Assembly: GCF_024494685.1 (NCBI RefSeq)
Contig: NZ_JANHDM010000007.1
Coordinates: 62,001-126,000, forward strand
DNA from: Halorubrum rubrum
GTDB taxonomy: Archaea; Halobacteriota; Halobacteria; Halobacteriales; Haloferacaceae
Length of the DNA stretch: 64,000 bases
Reading direction: 5' to 3'
Shown: piece by piece, positions 26,367 through 28,063 of the stretch
Layout: every line of letters starts with the position of its first letter
Numbering within the stretch: position 1 is the stretch's first letter
Made by a program: the position numbers and the translations under genes
The notes under the pieces: model-generated
What the model was told of the DNA's origin: nothing
Database searches by the model: none
Seen by the model: only the letters and a program-made list of their open reading frames with translations

Positions 26367-27308
26367 CTACCGCGGTACGTCGTCGTAACACGCCGACTCC
26401 ACGCGCCGGTCGAACAGCCGCGAGAGCAGCGTCGTGAGCGGGCCGGCGGCCCCCTCCCCGTCGCCGTCGACGGCGATCCCGTCGACCGCTCGAACCGGCC
26501 GGATCTCCCACGTCGCGTTCGCGAGGAAGACCTCGTCGGCCTCCCGAACCTCGCTCGGGGCGTAGCTCCCCTCCTCGACCGGGATTCCCTCCTCCCCGGC
26601 GAGGTCGAGCACTTCCGCCCGCGCGACGCGCGGGACGACCGGGCCGTCGATCGAGGGCGTCTTGAGTCCCTCGCCGTCGGCGAAAAAGAGGGTCGAATCC
26701 GCCCCGCCGACGGCGCGCCCGTCGGCGTCGAGAAGCAGCGCCTCGTCCGCGCCCGTCACGCGGAGTTCGAGCCGCGCGAGGACCTCGTTCACCCGAGCGT
26801 GGGTCGTCGCGTCCGATGGAACGGCCCGGTCCGGCGTCTTTCGCGTTTTGACGGTCTGGAGGGTCGCCGGGGCGTCGAAGACCGGCTCCGACCCGACGCC
26901 GCCCCTCGGAAGCGGGCGCACCATGATGACGACCGTCGGATCGCTCTCGACCCGAGGGTCGAACCGGTCGCCGGACCCACCGGCTCGACCGGATCCGCCC
27001 GCCCGGCGGCCGCGGGTGATCGAGATCTCACAGACCGCGTCCGCCAGGTCGTTCGCCGCGAGCGTCTCGTCGATTCGCTCTCGTAGTTCCGCCTTCGGGA
27101 GGCCGTGGTCGATCGAGAGCGCCGCACAGCTCCGGGCCAGGCGGTCGGCGTGCCGGTCCCAACGGAACACGCGGCCGCCGTACGCTCGCATCGTCTCGCG
27201 AGCCGCGTCGCCGTAGCCGAACCCGCGGTCCTCGACGTGGACCGTCGCCGACTCCGCGGGCACGATCTCGCCGTCGACGTGGTACCGACGGTCCGGCGGG
27301 TCGCTCAT
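26367..27308 (-). CDS. Class IV aminotransferase homologue with a degenerate active site
   Basis: A 313-residue protein of the branched-chain aminotransferase / aminodeoxychorismate lyase fold: VHVEDRGFGYGDAARETMRAYGG-like start, central beta core and the family C-terminus. The PLP lysine, expected in an AKTH context, reads as Thr168 (SDATTHARVN; codon ACG at 26805-26807). The glutamate that contacts the PLP ring nitrogen, normally AEGA.SNLF, reads as Gly201 (VGGADSTLF). The frame is intact and the protein is full length. I infer an inactive or repurposed paralogue. No pabA or pabB gene lies beside it. Confidence 0.82.
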   Translation of the reverse strand: MSDPPDRRYHVDGEIVPAESATVHVEDRGFGYGDAARETMRAYGGRVFRWDRHADRLARSCAALSIDHGLPKAELRERIDETLAANDLADAVCEISITRGRRAGGSGRAGGSGDRFDPRVESDPTVVIMVRPLPRGGVGSEPVFDAPATLQTVKTRKTPDRAVPSDATTHARVNEVLARLELRVTGADEALLLDADGRAVGGADSTLFFADGEGLKTPSIDGPVVPRVARAEVLDLAGEEGIPVEEGSYAPSEVREADEVFLANATWEIRPVRAVDGIAVDGDGEGAAGPLTTLLSRLFDRRVESACYDDVPR

Positions 27309-27344
27309 CCGCGTTGCCGGGCCGGACGGTGGGCCGGAGACACC

Positions 27345-27953
27345 TCAGAACTCCTTCGCGCGGTCCACCCACTTGGCGGCGCGTTTCTCGCCGATGCTCG
27401 CGCCCTCGGCCACGTCGGCGGGGTCGGCGGCCGCGAGGTCCTCGACGGTGTCGATCCCGATCTTCGCGAGCCGCTCGCCGTACGCCGGCCCGATCCCCTT
27501 GATCCGGTCGACCGGGTCGCCGTCGGGTTCCTCCGCGGACGAGTCCGCGGCGGTCCCGGCGGCATCGTCGGCGTCGGTTTCGGATCCCTCCTCGTCCTCG
27601 ACCGTCTCTTCGTCCTCGACCGTCTCCTCGTCCTCGATCGCTTCCTCGTCCTCGATCGCTTCCTCGTCCGCGGATCCCGTCGCGGTGGCGTCGTCGGATC
27701 CCGCCGTGTCGGGCTCGTCCTCGCCGAGCCCGTCCTCGGTCTCCTCCTCGTCTTCGGCGATCTCCCGTTCATCCACGACGGGGTCCTCGGTCTCCGAGCC
27801 GGCGATTTCGCTCTCGTCGGTCGTTTCGCCCCCGTCACTCGGCTCGCTTTCGTCGGCGTCCCGTTCGACGGTCACCGTCGTCTCCCCGCTCTCGTCGTCG
27901 GACGAGCCGCTCCCGAATCCGAGCTTCTCCTTGATCTTCTTCAGCAAGGCCAT
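27345..27953 (-). CDS. Acidic protein with C-terminal helix-hairpin-helix domain
   Basis: A 202-residue protein in three parts: a basic amphipathic N-terminal helix (MALLKKIKEKLGF), a very acidic low-complexity middle (about 15-140), and a helix-hairpin-helix domain (about 150-200) with IKGIGPAYGERLAKIGIDTV. The middle includes four 18-base tandem units at 27590-27665, encoding EDEEAI or EDEETV. The HhH fold suggests DNA binding or protein contact, as in other small HhH proteins. Its promoter is one of the clearest in the window. Confidence 0.82.
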   Translation of the reverse strand: MALLKKIKEKLGFGSGSSDDESGETTVTVERDADESEPSDGGETTDESEIAGSETEDPVVDEREIAEDEEETEDGLGEDEPDTAGSDDATATGSADEEAIEDEEAIEDEETVEDEETVEDEEGSETDADDAAGTAADSSAEEPDGDPVDRIKGIGPAYGERLAKIGIDTVEDLAAADPADVAEGASIGEKRAAKWVDRAKEF

Positions 27954-27975
27954 TAGGGTCCGATACACGCGCCCG

Positions 27976-27985
27976 ATATTTAAAG
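27976..27985 (-). promoter_or_regulatory. TATA box of the HhH protein gene
   Basis: CTTTAAATATC on the minus strand is centred about 28 bases before the ATG at 27953, the spacing for a leaderless transcript. Confidence 0.7.
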
Positions 27986-28063
27986 GCCGGCGACGACCTC
28001 GGAAACGAGCGATCGGAGCATCGGTCTCGCCGCGGTTAAGTCGACGCGGGCACACGATCGGTC

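Follow-up and report, generated by a model that had tools for sequence, protein, structure and literature searches.

A probable PLP-free pseudoenzyme derived from pabC and retained in Halorubrum lacking PabB

Within the window, the 64,000-nucleotide stretch of Halorubrum rubrum DNA analysed here, one open frame encodes a class IV aminotransferase homologue in which the lysine expected to form the Schiff base with PLP, and the glutamate expected to contact its ring nitrogen, are both replaced. What is such a protein, and why is it kept? A first-pass annotation of the DNA had recognised the two replacements (Thr168, Gly201) in an intact 313-residue frame of conserved fold and proposed a candidate pseudoenzyme, perhaps a binding or regulatory protein. 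Reading of the minus strand confirms both codons and the uninterrupted frame from ATG to TAG (Table 1), and the candidate pseudoenzyme is strengthened by wider loss of cofactor contacts, an arginine in the phosphate cup, a fold predicted to be intact, shared inheritance in seven species and purifying selection; the protein may have a binding or regulatory role.

Table 1. Features of the pabC locus, in window coordinates
Feature	Position	Strand	Remark
Probable pabC-derived class IV (fold-type IV) pseudoenzyme	26367..27308	-	313 aa; ATG start, TAG stop
Codon 263, Ala for phosphate-binding Thr	26520..26522	-	alignment
Codons 225-229, VPRVA for LPGVT = PLP phosphate cup	26622..26636	-	Gly227 to Arg, Thr229 to Ala; steric argument PMC3174152
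Codon 206, Thr for second-shell Asn	26691..26693	-	Thr tolerated in active enzymes
Codon 201, GGC = Gly for ring-nitrogen Glu	26706..26708	-	Gly in 7/7 species
Codons 171-172, Ala-Arg for Asn-Tyr	26793..26798	-	Tyr contacts PLP O3' (contact map PMC12429042)
Codon 168, ACG = Thr for PLP Schiff-base Lys	26805..26807	-	Thr in 6/7, Ala in 1/7 species
Gly/Arg-rich insertion, residues 103-116	26961..27002	-	low model confidence; specific to window clade and sister L081
Codon 56, phosphate-binding Arg, kept	27141..27143	-	alignment
Codon 37, Arg for conserved Phe beside PLP	27198..27200	-	alignment
36-bp junction	27309..27344	.	most Halorubrum relatives have pabB and pabA there, ~2.4 kb
HHH_5-domain gene, upstream, conserved neighbour	27345..28055	-	same strand as pabC

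Descent of the altered gene

The sequence matches the Pfam Aminotran_4 profile (PF01063) at 155 bits against a cut-off of 28.5 over residues 38-275, and this match and the two-domain fold of an AlphaFold2 model place it among the class IV aminotransferases. By both tree position and gene order it is by descent the haloarchaeal PabC, orthologous to Haloferax volcanii HVO_0708, a candidate aminodeoxychorismate lyase (PMC8305020), which is the function proposed for haloarchaeal PabC generally. It is 68-71% identical to the nearest intact Halorubrum PabC proteins and shares with them its HHH-gene, Rieske and AroE neighbours. Its scores lie below two NCBIfam equivalog cut-offs for aminodeoxychorismate lyase (PRK07650, 121.5 versus 308 bits; PRK06092, 114.7 versus 260), values of little weight as they cover the altered copy alone. 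An intact second PabC copy, which the first-pass annotation had suggested seeking, was rejected, the only further class IV gene in the window's genome being IlvE with its lysine intact (NVKTTGLYVNS). The upstream HHH-domain gene evolves fast (omega 0.27) and encodes a long acidic linker, yet its place beside pabC is widely conserved.

The gene is present in 51 of 52 genus-group genomes. Seven have the altered form (G000, G001, G005, G007, G012, G013 and G033), so that both changes extend to six species besides that of the window, one with Ala168. Five of the clade species also occur independently as named assemblies, the named members being Halorubrum aquaticum, Hrr. sp. 48-1-W, Hrr. halodurans, Hrr. 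cibi and 'Halobellus captivus' ZY8, the last belonging to the same genus group by genome placement. The seven copies cluster in a maximum-likelihood tree on a long stem (96% bootstrap); their sister L081, from a PabB-less genome of 82% completeness, is a Lys to Arg protein, and L076, the next in line, is intact and PabB-positive. Sequencing error was rejected, the Lys/Glu loss being common to seven species, as was horizontal gain, the clade being nested within Halorubrum PabC. In G005 (L072:835-2430) and Hrr. aquaticum (L003:6001-7596) the frame has no stop and continues via a short linker into a DUF5789 gene, forming a 532-aa open frame that is a candidate fusion.

The cofactor site

In fold-type IV proteins the cofactor is held by Lys, Tyr (O3'), Glu (N1), a phosphate Arg and two Thr (PMC12429042), contacts that motif alignment places here at Lys168, Tyr172, Glu201, Arg56, Thr229 and Thr263; residue mapping to solved structures is likewise by sequence motif. 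Across the window clade position 168 is Thr or Ala, 172 Arg, 201 Gly and 263 Ala, position 229 is Ala except for one Val and one Thr, and Arg56 alone of the set is kept. Five of the six first-shell contacts are thus replaced, whereas seven of the remaining ~80 positions invariant across the order have changed (Fisher p ~1e-4), the base for this comparison being the ~86 positions conserved across PabB-positive haloarchaea. The first-pass annotation had missed the replacements of Tyr172, Thr229 and Thr263, and also those of Phe37 and Gly227, which are Arg in the clade (Ala in one species at 37). Phe37 and Gly227 match Phe27 and Gly199 of Pseudomonas aeruginosa PabC (2y4r), the glycine by its motif position preceding the V-T-R stretch. 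This enzyme has the same fold, and the Phe, Thr, His, Arg, Gly, Lys and Arg conserved around its PLP (PMC3174152) provide a yardstick by which the window protein has Phe, Lys and Gly replaced, by Arg37, Thr168 and Arg227. At Gly199, a side chain of any kind would run into the phosphate of PLP (PMC3174152).

With five of six first-shell contacts changed and Gly227 replaced by Arg, the alignments make loss of PLP binding very likely, and we infer that the window protein does not bind the cofactor. The first-pass annotation had allowed that alignment might place an intact lysine elsewhere; none substitutes for residue 168, and a displaced lysine was rejected, those common to most of the clade (154, 157 and 216) being ancestral and outside the site.

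Pathway loss and its recurrence

In the usual Halorubrum order pabB and pabA lie between the HHH-domain gene and pabC. In the seven clade genomes the HHH gene abuts pabC, pabA and pabB both being missing from the locus, and homology search of these draft genomes (94-99% complete) finds no PabB in any of them, a result that would not register a divergent substitute. A few PabB-less genomes carry a third, distant chorismate-binding match; in the window's genome the Chorismate_bind proteins are only TrpE (on two contigs) and MenF. The two TrpE matches have identical scores (G000 C21:3251-4066 and C22:17412-18227), reflecting duplication or assembly overlap. The ADC synthase PabA/PabB by which a PabC would be recognised by function is thus missing from the window's genome as far as these searches reach (PabB genome-wide, pabA at the locus), and where the PabC relatives have Lys168, Glu201 and a genomic PabA/PabB, the window lineage has lost both its PLP site and PabB. 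In Haloferax volcanii the corresponding candidates are adjacent (HVO_0708-0710) and are without experimental confirmation (PMC8305020).

Neither the pabA/pabB loss nor its recurrence in other haloarchaea was noticed in the first-pass annotation. Among 391 order-level genomes screened for PabB, two dozen outside the genus are PabB-less; pabC is also gone in about half of these and kept in the rest. Lys168 and Glu201 are intact in 52 of 52 sampled PabB-positive haloarchaeal orthologues aligned, whereas Lys, Glu or both are lost in 17 of the 21 PabB-less genomes with a full-length pabC, in about eight lineages counting the window clade. Lysine is replaced by Thr/Ala, Arg (twice), Gln or Leu, and glutamate by Gly (several times), Ala or Gln. 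The association of site loss with PabB absence gives a Fisher p of 3e-13 by genome, where genomes are not independent, and of 4e-8 by lineage (with ~8 of the PabB-less lineages broken and 3 intact). L099 and L100 come from PabB-less genomes that hold pabA or pabB fragments and their pabC is intact, as expected if decay of the site follows loss of the pathway. The active site is therefore lost in the wake of the pathway, and the protein nonetheless stays. That pabC remains intact because it is linked to pabAB was rejected: L127 and L148, from PabB-positive genomes, are encoded away from pabAB and still have both Lys and Glu.

In one genus of PabB-less genomes (L107, L108 and L110) the PabC lysine is kept and the ring-nitrogen Glu is Gly, with an omega of 0.06, and these proteins may be PLP enzymes of altered chemistry. 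In G045, where PabC (L096) is intact, PabB is seemingly split in two overlapping frames (C1:2440032-2441800), which may mean that PabB was lost very recently. L111 (1498-2364), from a PabB-less genome of another family, has independently changed Lys to Leu, Glu to Gly and Phe37 to Arg, and also has the H-A-R motif of the window clade (Asn-Tyr to Ala-Arg); a common origin of these THAR motifs was rejected, L111 joining L148 at 100% support.

Every one of the 34 genomes examined for FolCP keeps it; nearly all are PabB-less, and the window's own is among them. The p-aminobenzoate therefore presumably comes from outside or by an unknown route. FolCP is kept also in genomes without both PabB and PabC (G103, G167, G228; G059, G067, G073, G086; G060, G074, G087, G175; G169), for which an external source of p-aminobenzoate, or such a route, is predicted.

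Selection, fold and the role of the retained protein

A codon branch model of 18 orthologues gives omega values of 0.060 for the background, 0.144 for the clade stem and 0.111 for the crown, where omega=1 is rejected (LR 421.7). Ten neighbouring genes, measured in the same genomes, have omegas of 0.023-0.267, a span that takes in the clade value of 0.106, and about 19 stops would be expected in the clade under neutrality where none is seen. Silent sites are near saturation and the omega values accordingly rough; neutrality is nevertheless excluded. At about twice the omega of active PabC, the clade has undergone some relaxation; the Glu-less L107/108/110 clade (0.060) is close to intact Halorubrum PabC (0.050). 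The window protein so combines lost catalytic residues with purifying selection on the frame (omega 0.106-0.111), as a retained pseudoenzyme should.

The AlphaFold2 model, built from 62 haloarchaeal sequences, has a pLDDT of 87 and a pTM of 0.86, is weakest in the Gly/Arg-rich insertion (~101-120) and at the C-terminus, and matches class IV structures with Z of 30-35 (best, VIA-align Z 35), so that the fold is predicted to be intact. The solved structures nearest to the window protein in both sequence (32% identity) and fold (Z 34-35) are the archaeal branched-chain aminotransferases of A. fulgidus (5mqz) and G. acetivorans (5e25/5cm0), described as transaminases, in which the alignment shows the PLP lysine and ring-nitrogen Glu that the window protein has lost. 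The closest precedent is the fold-type IV aminotransferase-like protein of Variovorax paradoxus (7z79, Z 34.5), with a natural Asn for the Schiff-base Lys, reversed in its N174K mutant (PDB 9j32). Both proteins have Arg for Tyr four residues past the Lys position (NSHSRLN in 7z79, TTHARVN here) and both are without the Glu (VSSCNST with Ser, VGGADST with Gly). Unlike the window protein, 7z79 is bacterial, is only ~30% identical, and keeps the phosphate-cup Gly and Thr (GITR). It is probably of independent origin, and the likeness looks convergent because the window protein nests in Halorubrum PabC, in a tree built without 7z79; no function for 7z79 was found in the literature searched. In three seemingly unrelated lines (the window clade, L111 and 7z79) Tyr has given way to Arg where the lysine was lost, which is suggestive but could come in part from GC-rich codon drift.

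Taken with the pathway loss, these data are in our view probably explained by a pabC-derived pseudoenzyme that is free of PLP and serves a non-catalytic function, whether old or new. The ancestor would be a haloarchaeal pabC, the proposed lyase, left without substrate when PabB was lost from the lineage; the PLP site would then have been dismantled by replacement of Lys, Tyr, Glu, both phosphate Thr and the phosphate-cup Gly, and selection would still have kept the folded protein for a non-catalytic role. Against this reading, pabC is wholly lost in some PabB-less haloarchaea, and its function is therefore dispensable there. It is possible, if rather doubtful, that haloarchaeal PabC has a second, PLP-independent function throughout the order, exposed whenever pabAB is lost, in which case the PLP site would decay or be rebuilt (recurrent Lys replacement, Tyr to Arg) with the rest under strong selection. 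That the gene is instead a relict, its use lost with pabAB and its frame open by chance in a GC-rich genome, is quite improbable: active-site loss after PabB loss in ~8 lineages, a roughly doubled omega, complete absence of pabC from several PabB-less genera and a frameshift in one genome would all suit decay, but an omega of 0.11, the strong rejection of omega=1, the missing stops, nearly all non-pocket invariant sites unchanged across the seven species and the low omega of the Glu-less clade would not.

What the cleft might do is the further question. A new PLP-independent enzyme, catalysing another reaction in a rebuilt, arginine-lined cleft, would suit both the greater likeness of the remodelled pocket region within the clade (93% versus 84% elsewhere, for hand-chosen positions) and the retention of folate synthesis genes without PabB, so that p-aminobenzoate must come from elsewhere. 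We consider it unlikely, as no catalytic motif is recognised, position 168 alternates between Thr and Ala, and the genomes without PabB and pabC that keep FolCP require no replacement route through the window protein. Residual PLP, bound non-covalently or via another lysine and giving weak transaminase activity, could draw on the Arg56, His53, Glu38, Thr39 and Arg230 that are kept in the site, but is scarcely credible with the Lys, Tyr, Glu and both Thr contacts lost, Arg at 227 and no new lysine. Under the favoured pseudoenzyme reading, the former cleft could speculatively bind an anionic metabolite or protein partner through Arg172, Arg227 and, in most species, Arg37, all new, together with the ancestral Arg56 and Arg230. 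This stays speculation because, set against ordinary variable sites, the replacement residues show no significant excess of fixation (19 of 32; p=0.12), and a claim of unusual fixation in the new pocket was dropped on this ground.

The haloarchaeal pabC thus amounts to an experiment in enzyme repurposing that nature has repeated: in several lineages a single-copy enzyme was deprived of its substrate, the cofactor site decayed and the protein was kept. Annotations of 'aminotransferase class IV' or PabC need a check of the Lys and Glu, and the distribution points to an unrecognised p-aminobenzoate dependence in haloarchaea retaining folate genes. The gene is a tractable one for finding a non-catalytic role of the class IV fold.
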